Assembly (NCBI GenBank): GCA_009839745.1
Contig: VXPE01000094.1
Span: forward strand, 1 to 34,517
Reading direction: 5' to 3'
From: Candidatus Poribacteria bacterium
GTDB lineage: Bacteria > Poribacteria > WGA-4E > WGA-3G
DNA: 34,517 nucleotides
Below are positions 11,451 through 20,141 of this stretch, in pieces (the stretch's first letter is position 1; each line of letters opens with the position of its first letter). The position numbers and the translations under genes were made by a program. Below the pieces are notes generated by a model. The model saw only the letters and a list, made by a program, of their open reading frames with translations, searched no databases and had not been told where the DNA came from.

Positions 11451-12809
11451 TTAGATTGAATAAATTGTTCGACTTGCTTCGTCAAATTCGGGTTTAAAAG
11501 GATCTGTTGAGAGGTAAAGGATCTGATACGGTTCATAAAGTTGAATGTAGCTCCAATTGACACCGCAGAGGACTTTTCCCTCGTTAACTTTCTTGATAAA
11601 TTTTCCTCGAAATTTCGCTCGCGTCCGTTCAGGTGGAAATTGCTCAGCGTGGCGAATCTGTTCATCTCTAACGATTCGCTCGGTTTCTGATCGGTTTTCA
11701 AGGGCGTAGTAGAGACTTTCGCCCTGACGCACGTTGTGGTATTTTAAATCTAAGTGTTTTACCTGTGGGGCATCCCATTCAAGTCCACGCTTTGTGAGGT
11801 AGGTCTGCAGCCACTTCCACTTAATGACCCAGTCCAATTCTCTGTCCAACTGCATCGGATCGCTTTCCAAGCAGGTCAGGACATACTCCCAGCGTGCCAT
11901 TATTTGATTCGTTGTTGAATCGGATTCGGCTTGTTCCAGATATCGCTTTGCGCATTCTAAGTATTGCCACTGTAGTTCAACAGCAGTGAGTCGCTTTCCA
12001 TTTTGGAGTTCGATGGGGTGTGTACATGTAATATCGTCGGAAATATCACGAATCGCTTTGACAGGATTGCGGAGTGCGAAGCGCTGCTCAATGAAGTTAT
12101 CTTCAATCATGCGGAGGATAATACCGGTTGTCCCTACCTTCAAAAAAGTCGAAAACTCGGACATATTGGAATCTCCGACGATGACGTGTAGGCGTCTGTA
12201 CTTTTCTCGGTCGGCATGGGGTTCATCGCGTGTGTTGATAATCCCGCGTGCCGTTGTTGTGCCGATGGAAATTTCCTCTCGGATGTGTTCGGCACGTTGC
12301 GAAATTGCGTAGTAACCCCGATAACTCGGTTTGATTTTTCCCGCACCTGCGAAAACCTGTCGAGTTACAAAGAAGGGGATCAACTGCGATGCCAATTGAC
12401 GGAAATCCACATGTCGTTCCATCAAATAATTTTCGTGGCATCCATAAGTATTTCCGGGGGTATCCAAATTATTTTTAAAGATAGAAATCTTTCCATAGAA
12501 CCCGTCGTTGCGCATGCTCCGTTCCGCAGTGCTGGCGAGTCGTGTGATAATGCGTTCACCGGCTTTATCGTGAGCGACGAGTTCAGTAACATCATCGCAT
12601 TCAGGGGTCGCGTATTCCGGGTGGCATCCGATGTCTTGGTAGAACCTGGCACCGTTTTCCAGGAAGACATCGGGATACATTCTCCCAGCGACGATTTCAC
12701 GGAAGAGGTACATCACGACGTTCTGAACGGTGAGGGTCTTTCTACGCGGGGCATCAGGGGTCCAGATGATCCCGAATTCGGTTTCTAATCCGTAAATTCT
12801 ACGTTTCAT
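11451..12809 (-). CDS. pafA: Pup-protein ligase PafA
   Basis: 452 residues. PafA activates the C-terminal glutamate of deamidated Pup with ATP and links it to substrate lysines. It belongs to the glutamine-synthetase-like carboxylate-amine ligase fold. It starts KRRIYGLETEFGIIW, as PafA does. It has NGARFYQDIGCHPEYATPEC with the presumed catalytic Asp, FKNNLDTPGNTYGCHENYL, NTRDEPHADREKYRRLHVI and VGDSNMSE. The tail YLSTDPFKPEFDEASRTI matches the PafA end. It lacks the Dop-specific WDYE-type insertion near residue 50, which separates it from the dop gene at 16536-18050. The ATG at 12807-12809 has AAGG 11 nt upstream, an unusually long spacing shared with dop. It is the last gene of the proteasome cluster. 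Confidence 0.96.
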   Translation of the reverse strand: MKRRIYGLETEFGIIWTPDAPRRKTLTVQNVVMYLFREIVAGRMYPDVFLENGARFYQDIGCHPEYATPECDDVTELVAHDKAGERIITRLASTAERSMRNDGFYGKISIFKNNLDTPGNTYGCHENYLMERHVDFRQLASQLIPFFVTRQVFAGAGKIKPSYRGYYAISQRAEHIREEISIGTTTARGIINTRDEPHADREKYRRLHVIVGDSNMSEFSTFLKVGTTGIILRMIEDNFIEQRFALRNPVKAIRDISDDITCTHPIELQNGKRLTAVELQWQYLECAKRYLEQAESDSTTNQIMARWEYVLTCLESDPMQLDRELDWVIKWKWLQTYLTKRGLEWDAPQVKHLDLKYHNVRQGESLYYALENRSETERIVRDEQIRHAEQFPPERTRAKFRGKFIKKVNEGKVLCGVNWSYIQLYEPYQILYLSTDPFKPEFDEASRTIYSI

Positions 12810-12935: not shown

Positions 12936-13655
12936 TCAGGAGAACAACCTTGCCACCTCATCAGTAGAGAGTCGTCGAAATTTTCGGCGTCCGGCGGTTC
13001 GTTCAAGACATGCCACTTCTATGGTTTCGGGGGTGATTTCATAGTCATCTTCGCTATCGGTTTCAACGGTTTGAAAGGTCTCTGTTACCAATCGGAGTGC
13101 GGCTGACATTTCTAAACCATCTGTATACTTCTGTTCCAAAATTTCTGTGATCGTTGTGGCACGTCCGCCAATAACAGCGTACTTCTCCTCTTCGGAATAG
13201 ATACCATCAAATGCAATATGGTAAATCTGATTTCGCTGCGTCCCGGAATTTGTTGAGGCATCGGGGATTCCTATCTCACAGACAAGGAGTTCGATCTCCA
13301 AGGGTTTCGCGTCCCAGGCTTGTGCGACGGCTCCCATGTGCTGTGAATAGAGGTTCGTCAACCATTTCGCGGTAACATCTTCACGGTAGTAGCGAAAACC
13401 TTTAATTTCTGATTCGCGAATGCCAGCGACGCGTAATGCCTCGTATTCAGCGATTCTACCTGCCGCCGCGAGCGCAATCCTGTCATAAATTTCGGCAATC
13501 TTAAAGGTCGTTTTGCGTGGATTTTCGGCAACCATCAGGAGCCCATCCCGGAATTCTAAGACGACGACCTCTTTCGCCTGGGCGATGCCGCTACGGACGA
13601 AATCCTCTTTATCCTGACGGATTTGTTCCGGTGAAACATAATAAGGTGTGGACAT
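12936..13655 (-). CDS. prcA: Proteasome subunit alpha
   Basis: 239 residues. It forms the outer, non-catalytic rings of the 20S proteasome and gates entry. The N-terminus STPYYVSPEQIRQDKEDFVR matches the PrcA pattern (xPYxxSPEQ), with KGIARAK-like RSGIAQAKEVVVL, then VAENPRKTTFKIAEIYDRIALAAAGRIAEY and RYYREDVTAKWLTNLYSQ. It has no N-terminal Thr nucleophile, as expected. The ATG is at 13653-13655 with only a weak AAAGAT upstream, about 105 nt after prcB. pafA follows downstream. Confidence 0.95.
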   Translation of the reverse strand: MSTPYYVSPEQIRQDKEDFVRSGIAQAKEVVVLEFRDGLLMVAENPRKTTFKIAEIYDRIALAAAGRIAEYEALRVAGIRESEIKGFRYYREDVTAKWLTNLYSQHMGAVAQAWDAKPLEIELLVCEIGIPDASTNSGTQRNQIYHIAFDGIYSEEEKYAVIGGRATTITEILEQKYTDGLEMSAALRLVTETFQTVETDSEDDYEITPETIEVACLERTAGRRKFRRLSTDEVARLFS

Positions 13656-13760: not shown

Positions 13761-14558
13761 CTACGTGAGGCGCGATATGAGGTCCCGGTAGAGTGCTTCT
13801 ACGGTAGTCTCAGGAATCTCGGCGACTCCTTCTTCAGTAATAGTGTAAAGCGTTGGGAAAATTTTCCGGATGAGATCAGGACCGCCTGTTGCGATATCTT
13901 CATCGGCAGCGTCCCAAAGTGCTTCCGCGACAATCTCTAATGCCGCTTGACGCGAAATCTCTGGCGTGTACCGTTTTTTTAGGGTTGTACGGGCATCCTT
14001 ACCACCGGAACCGATTGCGTAATAGGTGTCTTCCTCGTAACGACCCCCGATAGCATCGTATTTAAAAATTCTACCGCGTTGCCGTTTCAGATCATAACCG
14101 GCGAAGAGTGGCAAGACAATTAAGCCCTGCATGGCAAGCGCTAAGTTAGAGCGGACCAAGTGTGAAAGGAAATTGGCTTGCCCTTCAAGACTGAGGCTCA
14201 TCCCTTCTGTCTTTTCGTAAAATTCGACCTCAACTTGGAAGAGTTTTGCCATCTCAATACAGGGACCAGCGGCACCCGCAACAGCGATTGCCGAGTGCCG
14301 ATCCACTGGATAGACTTTCTGAATTCGCCGCTCGCCGACCTGATACCCTTCTGTTGCCTGCCGGTCACCAGCCATAATGACACCAGCATTATAAACAACC
14401 GCTAAAACGGTGGTGCCTTCGTAAGAACGCAATGATGACTCGGATATGTGAGCACTTGAAACGGCATCAGACGCATCGGACATCGCCAATAATTCAGGAT
14501 GGCGACGCTTGAGGATTTGGAGAAAGTCAGAAGTGCCATAATCATCGAGGTCAAGCAC
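13761..14558 (-). CDS. prcB: Proteasome subunit beta
   Basis: 265 residues. It is the catalytic N-terminal-nucleophile protease subunit. A 48-residue propeptide ends at YEG, and cleavage would expose Thr49 of TTVLAVVY. In mature numbering, Asp17 (MAGDRQ) and Lys33 (IQKVY) are in place, so the active site is complete. The GTG start at 14556-14558 lies 2 nt after the pup stop. Its Shine-Dalgarno (GAGGAGG, 14569-14575) overlaps the end of pup, implying translational coupling. Alpha and beta genes in this order next to pup match the actinobacterial arrangement. Confidence 0.96.
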   Translation of the reverse strand: MLDLDDYGTSDFLQILKRRHPELLAMSDASDAVSSAHISESSLRSYEGTTVLAVVYNAGVIMAGDRQATEGYQVGERRIQKVYPVDRHSAIAVAGAAGPCIEMAKLFQVEVEFYEKTEGMSLSLEGQANFLSHLVRSNLALAMQGLIVLPLFAGYDLKRQRGRIFKYDAIGGRYEEDTYYAIGSGGKDARTTLKKRYTPEISRQAALEIVAEALWDAADEDIATGGPDLIRKIFPTLYTITEEGVAEIPETTVEALYRDLISRLT

Positions 14559-14560
14559 TC

Positions 14561-14758
14561 CTACTGCCCTCCTCGTTGGATATAGTTTTCGACAAATGCC
14601 TGTGAATCTTCCTCCAGGATTTCATCGATTTCGTCAAGAAGTGAGTCTAAGTCTTCGACGAACTCCTCGTCCATTTCGCTTGATTTGACATTCAGTTCAA
14701 TCTCTTCGGTTTCATCGACAGGATGATTGACCTGTTCCTGTTGTTTTTCAGTCGACAT
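14561..14758 (-). CDS. pup: Prokaryotic ubiquitin-like protein Pup
   Basis: 65 residues, very acidic (runs such as EMDEEFVEDLDSLLDEIDE), mostly disordered and helical as in the family. It ends in ENYIQRGGQ. The terminal Gln means Pup must be deamidated by Dop to Glu before PafA can conjugate it. The helical region 25-52 would be the part captured by the ARC coiled coils. The ATG at 14756-14758 has AAGGAG about 7 nt upstream. It sits directly before prcB. Upstream, a restriction-modification pair separates it from dop. Confidence 0.97.
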   Translation of the reverse strand: MSTEKQQEQVNHPVDETEEIELNVKSSEMDEEFVEDLDSLLDEIDEILEEDSQAFVENYIQRGGQ

Positions 14759-14859
14759 GGTTTTCTCCTTTTATAGTTACGCAATAAATGGTTTTGGAAT
14801 TGAGAAATGTAAGAGACCTATATATTTAATTGTGCTAAAAATGTTTTTCATGAAACTAT

Positions 14860-15621
14860 TTATGAAACTGAATCCGGCTCATCGTTATATTTTATTGTCG
14901 TAATAGGGGTTAACATCTCAGACAATGACTGGCACTTCATTTTTATTTGGATGTTGTTACCACCGTGAGCCAAATCATCTTTAGAATGTTTTTCACGTGG
15001 CCCATTACCGCCTTTCCTTTGAATTGTAAAACATGAATGTAAAGAAATGACCCCCCTGGGCGTGATTTCGACATTTATTGATTTTCTTAAAAATTCCAGT
15101 AGTTCCTCCATTTTATAGACCCAAATAATCTGAGCGTCCGATTTAATTAATACAAAAAGTTTGGGAGAATTCTCACCCTGTAAACTGTATTTTAGAATAT
15201 CAAAGGCTTTGTTATAGTTTAGTTCGCGAAGAATAAAATCAGTGTCCTCATTACTAATCCAGTTTGTTCTGGAGTTTCTTGCCTTTCTGATCGTTGATTT
15301 TTCTAAAACTTGTTTAAAGTTATCCGAGAGACCGAAGCGGGCTACAAAGGCTTCAATTTTCATGCGTGTAACTTGATTAAACCCTGTCCCTTTAAATGAC
15401 TTGATACTTGCTTTAAAATTGTGACCTTCTGTTGTGTGAATAAACACATCAGATTTTTTTCCATACTGTCCTTCACGTATCACGAACTCTATTTCTTGGT
15501 TTTCCGGAACAAGTTCTGAAAACGCCTCAGCAATTTTTTTAATATTTTGTGGGTCTTTGGCTATCTCGCGAGAAAATAAGTTTTCATAATATGTCCCTTG
15601 AGCTGCATTTTGGTTTGTCAT
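14860..15621 (-). CDS. Probable type II restriction endonuclease (PD-(D/E)xK-like)
   Basis: 253 residues with no close family I can name. The assignment rests on two facts. It starts 12 nt after an adenine DNA methyltransferase on the same strand. It also contains EFVIREGQYGKKSDVFI followed by NFKASIKSFKG, which fits a PD-(D/E)xK nuclease core (Asp in SDV, then S-I-K where E-x-K is usual). The middle is basic (RKARNSRTNW), suitable for DNA contact. The sequence is clearly AT-richer than its neighbours, suggesting horizontal acquisition. It could instead be another methyltransferase-linked protein. About 100 AT-rich bases separate its end from pup. Confidence 0.65.
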   Translation of the reverse strand: MTNQNAAQGTYYENLFSREIAKDPQNIKKIAEAFSELVPENQEIEFVIREGQYGKKSDVFIHTTEGHNFKASIKSFKGTGFNQVTRMKIEAFVARFGLSDNFKQVLEKSTIRKARNSRTNWISNEDTDFILRELNYNKAFDILKYSLQGENSPKLFVLIKSDAQIIWVYKMEELLEFLRKSINVEITPRGVISLHSCFTIQRKGGNGPREKHSKDDLAHGGNNIQIKMKCQSLSEMLTPITTIKYNDEPDSVS

Positions 15622-15633
15622 TCACTTACCCTA

Positions 15634-16503
15634 TTAATAATTAAAAGCGATCATTTCTCGGCTTTTATTTTGCGTAAAATACTGCAATGACCTCATCAAA
15701 GTAATTGGTCGAACTGTGTAGGATTCAGGAAGGTCAAATATATTCGGGTGATTTTGTTCGGATAAGACGACTTTATTTCTTAATTCAATTGTTCTTAAAA
15801 ACTGATTGAACTCACCTAAATCGAGAACGCCATTATAATGCCCATTGGTATTATTGAAATAGGGAGGGTCAAGATATAAAAAGGAGTTATCGACACAAGC
15901 GAACTCTTTATAATCCTCGTTCATTATGGTTAAGTTTTGAAGGGTTTTACTTAAATTCAACAATGAATCAAGATTTACTTTAGGACATGAGCTGCCTTTT
16001 CTGATAGGCGAATTGAATTTGTTGCTTGAATTGAATCTGATTTTCCCTGAAAACGCGTTCTTCGCAAGGTAAAGGAAGTTCGCCGCCCCCTCCACCCCAT
16101 TTTCTAAACATAGATTCCTGACTTGGTAATAATACTCAGTAGAAGAATTATTGTAATGTTCGTTATACAGTTCCCATAACCGCATTGGAGATGTTTGGAC
16201 GTGCCGTATGAGGTTCACAACGATAGGGTTATTGTCGTTATAGGTAACGCGATGAGATCCAAACCGATTGCACGCATAAAGAGAGAATGCCCCTCCTCCT
16301 CCAAATATATCATAAATACGACAGGCAAGGTTATCAGGTATTATTTTATCAAAAATATCTTTGAAACCTGCTTTACAACCAATGTAGGGAATTATCTTTA
16401 GATTCGCACGCTTGTTTTTTACAACAAACTCGGATTGCTGTCCACTCGCCCAGTCTGTATTTATTTCATCCATTCTACCTTTGTCTATATTTGGATTTAT
16501 CAT
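15634..16503 (-). CDS. D12-class N6-adenine DNA methyltransferase (Dam-like)
   Basis: 289 residues. It should transfer a methyl group from SAM to adenine N6. The motifs run in Dam-type order: motif X (IIPYIGCKAGFKDIF), motif I with the SAM-binding loop (YDIFGGGGAFSL), and motif IV DPPY in FLYLDPPYFNN, then VVLSEQ. The recognition sequence cannot be read. The ATG at 16501-16503 has GAAGGGA about 6-7 nt upstream and follows the dop stop by 32 nt. It pairs with the endonuclease at 14860-15621. Its base composition is AT-rich compared with dop and pup on either side, consistent with insertion into an existing operon. Confidence 0.92.
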   Translation of the reverse strand: MINPNIDKGRMDEINTDWASGQQSEFVVKNKRANLKIIPYIGCKAGFKDIFDKIIPDNLACRIYDIFGGGGAFSLYACNRFGSHRVTYNDNNPIVVNLIRHVQTSPMRLWELYNEHYNNSSTEYYYQVRNLCLENGVEGAANFLYLAKNAFSGKIRFNSSNKFNSPIRKGSSCPKVNLDSLLNLSKTLQNLTIMNEDYKEFACVDNSFLYLDPPYFNNTNGHYNGVLDLGEFNQFLRTIELRNKVVLSEQNHPNIFDLPESYTVRPITLMRSLQYFTQNKSREMIAFNY

Positions 16504-16535
16504 ACGTATTCCCTTCTATTGATGAAAACCTACGG

Positions 16536-18050
16536 CTACTTTGAAGAATTACCTCGGAGTTTTTTAACGAGTTCGTCTGCTGTGCAGTTGTTCAGCAATT
16601 CCCCAACGATCTTTTGTGTGCCAAAATGCGGACGATCCATCATAATTTTATCGAAGCTTCTTCGATCTTTACCAATAAAAATCATTGAGTTCCAACTTGC
16701 GCTGTAGATGTGATTTGGAAACTTCCGTAAACAGGTACCCCGAAAATATGCGCGGGTATCCACGGGCGGATAGTGCATCGCGTGCACAATCTCTTCGTGG
16801 CTGAGCAACCGTTTCACATGTCCGTTTTTCAGCAATCTAATATAAAGTCCTTTGTCTGGACGGATATCGTGATACTGTAAGTCAAGCATTTGGACGTGCG
16901 CGTCCGTCCATTGGTATCCGTGTCGTTTGCGATACGCCTCTATTAATTTCTTTTTTATGATCCAGTCGAGGTGTTGGCTGAGCCGCATCGGATCGATTTC
17001 TAAGTTGTCAAGCACATATTGCCATTTTTCGAGAACATCTTCAACAACAGGGGTCCGCTCTTCGGTTGTGAGATGTTGTTGTGCAAGTTTGAGGTATGCC
17101 CGCTGGACTTGTATCGGTGTCCACTGCTCGCCATCTGCGAGTTCTATCTGATTTTTGCACGAAAGATCTCGTGAAATACTTTTTATTGCCGCGACGGGAT
17201 CCTTTAAACCGAATTGTTTTCCGACAACACCTTTCTCAATCAACTGAAGCACTATGGAGGTAATACCAACTTTGAGATAGATGCTGAGTTCGGACATATT
17301 AGAATCGCCGACGATAACGTGCAAACGTCGATAGATTTGGTCATCAGCATGCGGTTCATCGCGCGTGTTAATCAAAGGGCGATTCACCATAGTGCTGAGG
17401 CCTACCTCTTTCTCAAAAAAATCGGCGCGTTGAGAAATCTGATAATCTGTTTCGCGACTTCCGTTTTCTGTCCCGACTTTGCCGCTACCTGTGATAATAA
17501 TACGGGTAACGAGGAACGGGGTCAACCCATCAACAATCTCATCAAACGGCACTTTACGGGACATAAGATAGTTTTCATGGGAACCGTAACTGTGTCCTTT
17601 GTAATCAGTATTATTTTTATAGATGATAATTTCTTGGTTGTCAAGCAAAAGGCGTTCAGCCGTTACCCTGCTGACTTCCAATATTAATTCTCCCGCCTTT
17701 TCGTAGAGCAGTAGGTCGCGTGCGTTGGCACATTCCGGCGTGCAATACTCCGGGTGGGCATGGTCCACATAATAACGCCCGCCGTTTATCAATATATCAT
17801 TGACGACACTATTTGTGTCTGCCTCGCTGATAGGTGTTTCCGCCTCCGCGAGAAACCCGCGAGCGTCCATCAAAGGGCTTTCTTGTTCATAGTCCCACGT
17901 GACAGAAGAAGTCGCGCTCGGAATATCACCCCTTGAAGTTTTATAGGCGTTAACTACCAAGGTGGAAGCAGCAACCGGATCTTGCTCGCGTGCATTTTTG
18001 ACTGAGATACCATACTCAGTCTCTGTTCCCATTACTATTGGTATTTCCAT
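16536..18050 (-). CDS. dop: Pup deamidase/depupylase Dop
   Basis: 504 residues, same glutamine-synthetase-like fold as PafA. Dop converts Pup-GGQ to Pup-GGE and can remove Pup from substrates. Dop-type features are MGTETEYGIS at the start, the extra VTWDYEQESPLMDARGF segment, NGGRYYVDHAHPEYCTPEC with the catalytic Asp, KNNTDYKGHSYGSHENYLMSR, NTRDEPHADDQIYRRLHVI and DTRAYFRGTCLRKF near the end. The ATG is at 18048-18050; AAGG lies 12 nt upstream, an odd spacing shared with pafA. It follows arc by 186 nt, and the methyltransferase gene starts 32 nt after its stop. Confidence 0.96.
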   Translation of the reverse strand: MEIPIVMGTETEYGISVKNAREQDPVAASTLVVNAYKTSRGDIPSATSSVTWDYEQESPLMDARGFLAEAETPISEADTNSVVNDILINGGRYYVDHAHPEYCTPECANARDLLLYEKAGELILEVSRVTAERLLLDNQEIIIYKNNTDYKGHSYGSHENYLMSRKVPFDEIVDGLTPFLVTRIIITGSGKVGTENGSRETDYQISQRADFFEKEVGLSTMVNRPLINTRDEPHADDQIYRRLHVIVGDSNMSELSIYLKVGITSIVLQLIEKGVVGKQFGLKDPVAAIKSISRDLSCKNQIELADGEQWTPIQVQRAYLKLAQQHLTTEERTPVVEDVLEKWQYVLDNLEIDPMRLSQHLDWIIKKKLIEAYRKRHGYQWTDAHVQMLDLQYHDIRPDKGLYIRLLKNGHVKRLLSHEEIVHAMHYPPVDTRAYFRGTCLRKFPNHIYSASWNSMIFIGKDRRSFDKIMMDRPHFGTQKIVGELLNNCTADELVKKLRGNSSK

Positions 18051-18236: not shown

Positions 18237-19997
18237 TCAAAGGAATGTACCGCCTCGGGTCACCCGGACGTTCTGTTTTTTCTCCTGTGTGGGTTCATTA
18301 ATCAAAGCACGGATATTAACGATCTTTTCACCTTTCCTGCCCGAGATTTTTGCCCAATCATCAGGATTCGTAGTGTTCGGAAGATCTTCATTTTCGTGGT
18401 ATTCTTCTCGAATCGCTGCGCTGAGATCTTCGAGGCGTATCCCTTTGTCAGTCCCATCAGAACCAATAAAACGTTTAATTGCTGTTTTCTTGGCACGTGA
18501 AACGATGTTTTCGATCATTGCCCCGCTCACAAAGTCTTTAAAGAAGAGGGTTTCCCGTTCGCCGCGGGCGTAAGTCACTTCAATAAACCGATTTTCATCA
18601 GTCGTTGCGTACATGTCGTTTGCCGCTTCATTGATGAAGTGCTTCGCGATCGCCTCGGTGTCCCCATTAAACTGCTTGCGAGTTTCTTCAGAGAACGGAA
18701 TATCGGGTGTCAGATATATGGCGAAGATGTCCTTCGCACCGTCAAGATTGGGACGATCGATTTTAATTTTCACGTCGAGCCGACCCGGTCTTAGAACAGC
18801 AGGGTCGAGAAGATCCTGTCGATTACTCGCGCCAATGACAATGACATCCCGTAGGTTCTCAACACCATCAATTTCCGAGAGGAACTGCGGCACGAGCGTT
18901 GATTCCATATCCGATGAGATACCCATGCCTCTGGATCGGAACAGAGAGTCCATTTCATCAAAGAAGATGATAACGGGAAATCCTTCTCGCGATTTATCGC
19001 GCGCTTTTTGGAAGACTTCTCGGATTTTACGTTCAGTTTCACCGACGTACTTATTTAAAAGTTCGGGTCCCTTAATATTAATGAAATAGCCGCGAACCTC
19101 GTCCCTGCCTGTTTCTTTTCGGACCCGCTCAGCGATGCTGCTCGCGACGGCGCGAGCTATCAAAGTTTTACCGCAACCGGGAGGTCCATAAAGGAGCACC
19201 CCTTTTGGGGGCGAGAGATTAAATTCCTTGTATTCCTTCGGATACAGGTATGGCAACTCAATGGCATCGCGAATCGCCTCTATCTGTGTATCGAGTCCAC
19301 CGATATCGGTGTAACCGATGTCTGGGACCTCTTCAAGTAGCAGATCTTCGACTTCTCGTTTTGGAAGTTTTTCCATAAGCATACTGGTCGTATGGTTGAG
19401 AAGGACGTGATCCCCGGCTTTCAGGGGTTCCTCTTTGAGGGATTCCGCTATTCTGACGACTCGTTCTTCATCGGTGCGAAGGCTCACAATGGCGCGTTCA
19501 TCCGCAATCCGTTCTTTGATTTTAACGACATCGCCATGCTTTTCGGCAGTTTTAATATTAACGACGTTCATTCCGCTATTAACAATAACCTCTTGTCCGA
19601 CCGCAAGGTCTGTATCCCTGAGTGCCGGATCGAGATTCACGCGCCATTTTCTACCGCTAATGTCGATATCGACGGTGCCATCTTCGTTTGAAGCGAGGAA
19701 GACTCCGTAATTATTGGGGGGTGCGCTGAGTTGGGCGACCTTTTCTTTGAGGATCTGGAGTTTCTCTTTCGCCTCTTGTAGCATGTTCGTGAGTTTCTTA
19801 TTCCGACGGTGTGCCGTCATTAACTCACGCTGCATTTCATAGAGTCGAGTTTCAAGATCCTTGACATAGACAGCACGCTGTTGTTGTCGCATGCTGGCAA
19901 GCTCAGCTTCGAGCATGTCAATCGTCCCTTGGAGTGTGCGAATTTGCTGTTGATACCAAACAGCATCGCAATTCTCTTGCTCCTCAAAGGAATCCAT
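18237..19997 (-). CDS. arc: Proteasome-associated AAA+ ATPase ARC/Mpa
   Basis: 586 residues from the ATG at 19995-19997, chosen because GAGGAAA (20004-20010) is well spaced; an upstream in-frame extension of 13 residues (MRTSCMAIKRGNS) lacks this support. It forms a hexameric unfoldase that recruits pupylated proteins. Order of parts: coiled coil with ELASMRQQQRAVYVKDLETR and LQILKEKVAQLS (Pup-binding), tandem OB folds (YGVFLASNEDGTVDI...), then the AAA domain with Walker A GPPGCGKT, Walker B IIFFDEMDS and arginine-finger region NRQDLLDPAVLRPGRLD. The C-terminus is RGGTFL, where the proteasome-docking tail is usually GQYL or a similar Tyr-Leu end. It is the first gene of the proteasome cluster and has its own promoter. 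Confidence 0.96.
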   Translation of the reverse strand: MDSFEEQENCDAVWYQQQIRTLQGTIDMLEAELASMRQQQRAVYVKDLETRLYEMQRELMTAHRRNKKLTNMLQEAKEKLQILKEKVAQLSAPPNNYGVFLASNEDGTVDIDISGRKWRVNLDPALRDTDLAVGQEVIVNSGMNVVNIKTAEKHGDVVKIKERIADERAIVSLRTDEERVVRIAESLKEEPLKAGDHVLLNHTTSMLMEKLPKREVEDLLLEEVPDIGYTDIGGLDTQIEAIRDAIELPYLYPKEYKEFNLSPPKGVLLYGPPGCGKTLIARAVASSIAERVRKETGRDEVRGYFINIKGPELLNKYVGETERKIREVFQKARDKSREGFPVIIFFDEMDSLFRSRGMGISSDMESTLVPQFLSEIDGVENLRDVIVIGASNRQDLLDPAVLRPGRLDVKIKIDRPNLDGAKDIFAIYLTPDIPFSEETRKQFNGDTEAIAKHFINEAANDMYATTDENRFIEVTYARGERETLFFKDFVSGAMIENIVSRAKKTAIKRFIGSDGTDKGIRLEDLSAAIREEYHENEDLPNTTNPDDWAKISGRKGEKIVNIRALINEPTQEKKQNVRVTRGGTFL

Positions 19998-20141
19998 GGA
20001 ATTTCCTCTTTTGATAGCCATACATGAAGTTCTCACTTTCCAAAACGATTTTTCGACTCCACTCGTAGCGGTGAAAGTCAGATACGCGGATAACTGTGTT
20101 CAGACGGGTTTCTGTTTGATCGACCCACCCTGTTTATTTAG

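Follow-up and report, generated by a model that had tools for sequence, protein, structure and literature searches.

The two genes that separate dop from pup in the proteasome operon of a Poribacteria genome are very probably passengers of an IS1595-family transposon, which inserted into the dop–pup spacer and later lost its left end and its transposase. The genome (G000) is 5.04 Mb in size and 96% complete, and its bearer is a sponge symbiont. The window, meaning the whole stretch of 34,517 nucleotides that was analysed, is its contig C94.

The operon runs on the minus strand in the order mpa, dop, methyltransferase, endonuclease, pup, prcB, prcA, pafA. Upstream of the pair are mpa, the mpa/ARC proteasomal ATPase gene (18237-20036; Pfam AAA and Prot_ATP_ID_OB), and dop, which codes for the depupylase/deamidase (16536-18050; PF03136, E=5e-173). 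Downstream are pup (14561-14758; 65 aa, ending in GGQ; PF05639, E=3e-15), prcB (13761-14558; PF00227, E=3e-36), prcA (12936-13655; PF00227, E=3e-12), and the Pup ligase gene pafA (11451-12809; PF03136, E=3e-154). The flanks are thus genuine by Pfam. Between them, in the same orientation, lie the methyltransferase gene (15634-16503), 32 nt from the dop stop, and the endonuclease gene (14860-15621), with 12 nt between the two and 101 nt from the endonuclease to pup. These coordinates confirm the placement given in a first-pass annotation of this DNA, and the composition agrees with it as well, since the pair has a GC content of 0.35-0.38 (about 36%) compared to 0.44-0.50 for the operon genes; the mean over 365 kb of the same genome is 0.483. 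The annotation had also held that the insertion keeps the operon readable. What can be said for this is that the pair is co-oriented and that the dop stop and the AAAGGAG ribosome-binding site before pup are intact. On the coding strand, there is no clear excess of promoters or terminators, making co-transcription with the operon plausible. Outside the proteasome operon, a second Pup-ligase-family gene pair (G000:C124 6309-7712 and equivalents) occurs in nearly every Poribacteria genome, and its genes are ~46% identical to dop.

The first gene of the pair codes for a predicted D12-class DNA N6-adenine methyltransferase of 289 aa (PF02086, E=6e-26), whose best solved relative is the M.DpnII methylase (PDB 2dpm, E=2e-12). 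Its motifs are DIFGGGGAF and DPPY; in an alignment of eight homologues, DPPY is invariant and the glycine-rich motif nearly so, and the homologues in G033 and G003 start ~13 codons further in. The D12 fold, DPPY, and a conserved hairpin (R..N....FN.P) are common to this protein and to M.DpnII and Dam (PDB 2dpm, 4rtj). However, the earlier description of the enzyme as “Dam-like” appears valid at the family level only. The protein scores 107.9 bits against a Dam cut-off (TIGR00571) of 114.85, and in an alignment with EcoDam, K9 corresponds to P39, L122 to K154, and Y138 is lost. These three EcoDam residues contact GATC, and because the contact positions are mostly changed, GATC is not predicted as the site of the methyltransferase. 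A site scan likewise found no special avoidance of GATC.

The product of the second gene, 253 aa in length, is classed with the R.HinP1I/MspI group as a putative type II restriction endonuclease. The window protein matches PF11463 (R.HinP1I) at E=2e-6, with 27.8 bits against a curated cut-off of 25, and also the PADLOC REase_II model and R.HinP1I itself (PDB 1ynm, E=0.0012), all in keeping with the earlier reading of a probable endonuclease. In a Foldseek search with an AlphaFold model, MspI came first, the model being of low confidence (pLDDT 58.6) and built from a six-sequence alignment. The G024 homologue has no PF11463 match at E<=0.01, and a PDB profile search with the family alignment returned no match. 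The likeness to R.HinP1I and R.MspI (PF11463; PDB 1ynm, 1sa3) is weak but specific in sequence and fold, with the SD...xxK site in common. The window endonuclease differs in being partnered with a D12 adenine methyltransferase, and the recognition site of the window pair must contain adenine. A homologue on lp28-5 of Borreliella burgdorferi (31%) adjoins a cytosine methyltransferase, and a relative in G060 adjoins an N6/N4-type methyltransferase, typed by its DPPF motif.

With a DNA methyltransferase gene directly beside an endonuclease gene, as is the rule for type II restriction-modification, the two are probably such a pair, their enzymatic activity being predicted from sequence. With a dN/dS of 0.10-0.22, the methyltransferase gene is under purifying selection, and so is the endonuclease gene, for which the ratio is 0.17-0.46. 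This selection, the intact frames, and the existence of methyltransferase-only but never nuclease-only copies fit a system that probably works and that decays in the usual order. The orphan methyltransferases are found in G003, G019, and G002 at one shared other locus beside a cupin gene, where the G002 contig stops within the gene. Palindrome avoidance was scanned in 365 kb of G000, 292 kb of G033, and, as a control, 354 kb of G023, and no site was depleted in both carriers (G000 and G033) yet not in G023. For example, the observed/expected ratio (O/E) of GTAC is 0.37 in G000, 0.49 in G023, and 0.68 in G033. The three genomes share a strong avoidance of CTAG, GGCC, and AGCT (O/E 0.06-0.48).

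Normally dop and pup are adjacent, as the first-pass annotation had supposed. In 50 poribacterial operons without the insert (32 of the same genus, from 31 genomes, one bin having two, and 18 from other families), the gap is 11-290 nt and holds no genes. The suggestion that the gap might be a hotspot also occupied by other defence genes was rejected on the same count, as no other gene lies there in the 50 operons. What fills most of the empty spacers is short inverted-repeat elements of the TTATCAGTTGTCAG...CTGATAACTG type; small repeats thus do insert here, unlike genes. Including the window's own genome, the endonuclease is present in 5/60 relatives. The pair sits inside the dop–pup gap in four genomes, namely G000, G033, G034, and G011 (the last split over two contigs), and dop, methyltransferase, and endonuclease follow in the same order in three other assemblies (RKRR01000120, which continues to pafA; JAAXHD010000309; and VXZK01000062, which breaks inside the endonuclease). 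An assembly join is thereby excluded, and the comparison of relatives supports the earlier proposal of a foreign restriction-modification insertion. In G024 and G085 the pair has other neighbours, lying between genes that resemble glcF and dcd in the former and close to groESL in the latter. The G024 bin has two diverged proteasome operons (L073, L074; dop dS 1.3) and is probably a mixture of two species, leaving the host of its copy uncertain. The G085 pair lies near HicA-like and reverse-transcriptase-like ORFs (L035 3677-4078, 9756-11321; by eye), a neighbourhood that is possibly a defence island.

The evidence for a transposon comes from the ends. Some 80 nt behind the endonuclease (14780-14859, minus strand) are conserved at the unrelated G024 site as well and, read outward, end in ...TTATTGCG. 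This right tail is 85% identical to G024:C198 over 93 nt; genomes without the pair have only ~30-nt matches to the terminal inverted repeat (TIR). A pattern search places the right TIR, CGCAATAAATGGTTTTGGAATTG (23 nt), at 14780-14802 on the plus strand, and just outside it is TAACTATA (14772-14779, minus strand). The junction and the empty sites, several of which read TAACTAT(A/T)AAAGGAG where the window has TAACTATA and the pup ribosome-binding site, mark these 8 bp as the surviving half of a target duplication, the only half that remains in the window. G033, G034, and G011 likewise have the right TIR in their operon copies. As a pattern, the TIR is a dispersed repeat with 1-30 matches in each of 12 genomes, many of them at contig ends, and none for the reversed-pattern control. 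Over 53 operon loci, with <=5 mismatches allowed, there are two matches, equal to the number of restriction-modification loci with a complete right end there, and again none for the reversed control.

Complete elements with the same TIR carry a transposase (PF12762, E=5e-38, and PF12760) between inverted TIRs, and the TIRs are bounded by exact 8-bp AT-rich target-site duplications (TSDs), as seen in six or more of the full elements (L157, L158, L159, L163, L240, and L251 among them). At G024:C198, the pair itself lies between both inverted TIRs (2 and 4 mismatches), the flanks TAAAAACA/TAAAAATA form an 8-bp target duplication matching at 7/8 positions, and the left end matches an intact IS1595 copy over ~105 nt. 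A C-terminal stub of the transposase directly precedes the methyltransferase in G033 (operon copy) and in G003 (orphan copy). The two-TIR copy and the stubs together give the ancestral order TIR-tnp-M-R-TIR. The G033 leader upstream of the methyltransferase had also been considered as a regulatory region and was set aside, as its translation is the 3′ end of the transposase. On the left side of the window, no TIR was found at the 32-nt junction (16504-16535, minus strand), and the transposase is absent from 14780-16535. Since the left TIR is missing in 4/4 operon copies, the window copy alone is no proof of transposition, and without a transposase it is a decayed, non-autonomous derivative and not an intact IS. 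No intact transposase was found with any copy of the exact D12-HinP1I pair. The earlier account of an inserted pair thus stands in outline, but what was inserted was not a bare pair; the genes came as IS1595 passengers, and the right end of the element is still in the window.

On this reading, the pair is a small type II restriction-modification system that very probably travels as the passenger of an IS1595 “transporter” IS, whose ancestral arrangement was transposase, methyltransferase, and endonuclease, in this order, between two TIRs. An element of this kind would have entered the AT-rich dop–pup spacer immediately before the ribosome-binding site of pup, and a deletion, presumably later, would have taken the left TIR and the transposase. 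What stayed in place is the methyltransferase, the endonuclease, the right TIR, and one half of the target duplication. The insertion is probably tolerated because it is co-oriented with the operon and spares both the stop of dop and the ribosome-binding site of pup. The adenine methyltransferase would protect the recognition site, and the HinP1I/MspI-like nuclease would cut unmodified copies.

The pair has also moved between lineages. Between G000 and G011, dS is 2.0 for dop, 0.36 for the methyltransferase, and 0.21 for the endonuclease, so that the pair is far younger than its host genes; between G033 and G034, the values are 0.25, 0.33, and 0.40. Compared to G085, dop is 74% identical and the methyltransferase 86%. 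The identity profile of the alignment shifts abruptly at the borders of the pair, and within the pair the endonuclease gene has a mosaic structure. Methyltransferases from the operon copies do not group as one clade (p=0.013; the tree is star-like). The right junction that these copies have in common points to a single founding insertion and later exchange between lineages, though repeated insertion at the site may have occurred instead. All carriers have IS1595 transposases, and none was detected in the empty relatives G023, G030, G010, G005, and G021, some of which keep solo TIRs.

Other explanations of the locus have to be weighed against these data. Vertical inheritance of a pair ancestral between dop and pup, with loss in most lineages, would account for the right junction common to the four operon copies and for the similarity of their left junctions, but it is barely credible given that the dop tree does not unite the four carriers in a clade (AU p=1.6e-7) and that the dS of the pair is 6-10 times below that of dop for G000-G011 and above it for G033-G034. 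Together with the lower GC, the same observations disfavour an objection foreseen in the first-pass annotation, that of an ancestral pair without a difference in composition. The pair could instead have been moved by a restriction-system-specific insertion, a plasmid, or a phage, the TIR being the end of a neighbouring solo IS. The G085 copy, which has no recognisable TIR or tail, would suit such a route, and insertion of restriction-modification systems by other routes has a precedent (PMC3031569, citing Furuta 2010). This reading is nevertheless improbable, as five copies, spread over two loci, have the tail and TIR attached to the pair, two copies have a transposase stub at the opposite end, and searches of 50,697 phage records and IMG/VR returned no relative of the endonuclease.

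Two further explanations concern function. The same orientation, the short intergenic gaps, in which neither a terminator nor a promoter gives a strong signal, and the retention of the pair at the dop–pup site in four genomes could mean that it was selected into the operon for co-expression of the endonuclease with the Pup-proteasome system, or for its degradation by that system, a link that the first-pass annotation had offered as speculation. The chance of this is very slight. The pair is beside unrelated genes in G024 and G085, the orphan methyltransferase has a site of its own in G002, G003, and G019, the 50 operons without the pair include that of the closest relative, G023 (98% identity in dop), and transposons of this family are found elsewhere with other restriction systems on board. 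The location is thus most simply a chance insertion into an AT-rich intergenic target, and nothing ties the pair to Pup or the proteasome, since its location varies, most operons are without it, and the insertion leaves the signal region of pup undisturbed. Gene order in a conserved operon, here that of the proteasome, need not imply functional coupling. Somewhat less remote, though still unlikely, is that the second gene codes for no active endonuclease, with the methyltransferase serving alone as an epigenetic regulator. The endonuclease evolves faster, with dN/dS up to 0.46, it is missing from the orphan copies at the cupin locus, and its third catalytic position is S, where HinP1I and MspI have Q or N. 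On the other hand, its frame is intact in five complete copies, SD-x13-SIK is unchanged in 6/6 homologues, and purifying selection still acts on it.

The transposon reading has parallels in known systems. Transporter ISs with passenger genes are known (Siguier et al. 2009, cited in PMC3129680), and IS1595-family features include the transposase, TIRs, and 8-bp duplications (PMC8101967). The poribacterial element family agrees with the IS1595 transporter type in its zinc-ribbon DDE_Tnp_IS1595 transposase, its TIRs, its 8-bp TSD, and passengers downstream of the transposase. It differs in that restriction-modification genes, of varying kinds, recur as its passengers; the copy in the window differs further in having lost its transposase and left TIR. 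IS-linked movement of a complete restriction-modification system has been shown in E. coli for PaeR7I (PMC3031569). There, host IS1/IS5 moved a restriction-modification plasmid under laboratory selection, whereas the poribacterial system is inside an element, between that element's own TIRs. A literature search found no paper on restriction-modification passengers of IS1595, with Siguier 2009 itself outside the search. An enrichment in restriction genes has been described for sponge symbionts (PMC5649159). A 2014 survey of 2261 genomes addressed how restriction-modification systems turn over fast though poorly represented on known mobile elements and suggested autonomous or small-element movement of complete systems (PMC4176335). 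The present locus is a concrete example whose ends can be seen: a transposon of roughly 1.9 kb holds a complete system, and the stages found are a two-TIR copy, a stranded copy, and an orphan methyltransferase.

Restriction cargo on IS1595 is not limited to this pair. Seven other copies have restriction-modification genes directly behind the transposase. One is in the window's own genome, where transposase, MTase_II, and REase_II (PDLC03487) lie in a row on one strand (G000:C26, L239 693-2977). At G031:C8, an intact transposase is followed by an N6_N4 methyltransferase and a 221-aa protein (a putative nuclease), with full TIRs and TTATTTTT on both sides. The cargo is an 801-aa HSDR_N/N6_Mtase/S fusion at G024:C183, a broken methyltransferase at G034:C137, a specificity subunit in G028 at 2.50 Mb, and a methyltransferase on the same strand in G028 at 300 kb and at G033:C61. 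Matches to N6_N4 methyltransferases number 9-54 per ~5 Mb in these genomes, or roughly 1% of genes, and seven cases among about twenty transposase loci are therefore estimated, informally, to be far above what random neighbours would give. Simple IS1595 copies free of cargo also exist (G017, G033:C162). The chances are about even that this IS1595 lineage of sponge Poribacteria is a dedicated shuttle for restriction-modification genes, taking up different ones (type II, fused type I/II, and specificity genes) at a single fixed position behind its transposase, spreading them between species, and leaving stranded systems and orphan methyltransferases on decay. Related poribacterial transposons with other such systems help explain how defence moves between genomes.

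Other loci showed further features. A 5.5-kb IS1595 element at L240 (G003:C40, 1176-6709), with an exact AAGATTTT duplication, has non-restriction cargo that, by eye, includes a HicB-like ORF. At L246 (G017:C1, 5.011-5.019 Mb), an IS1595 copy adjoins what is, by eye, an apparent CRISPR array with Cas1-like and reverse-transcriptase/maturase-like ORFs. In the window itself, the start of a TnpB/OrfB-like ORF (MIKTHKITLRPNRGQIAWFYQQCG...) lies at the contig end (34229-34517, plus strand; by eye).
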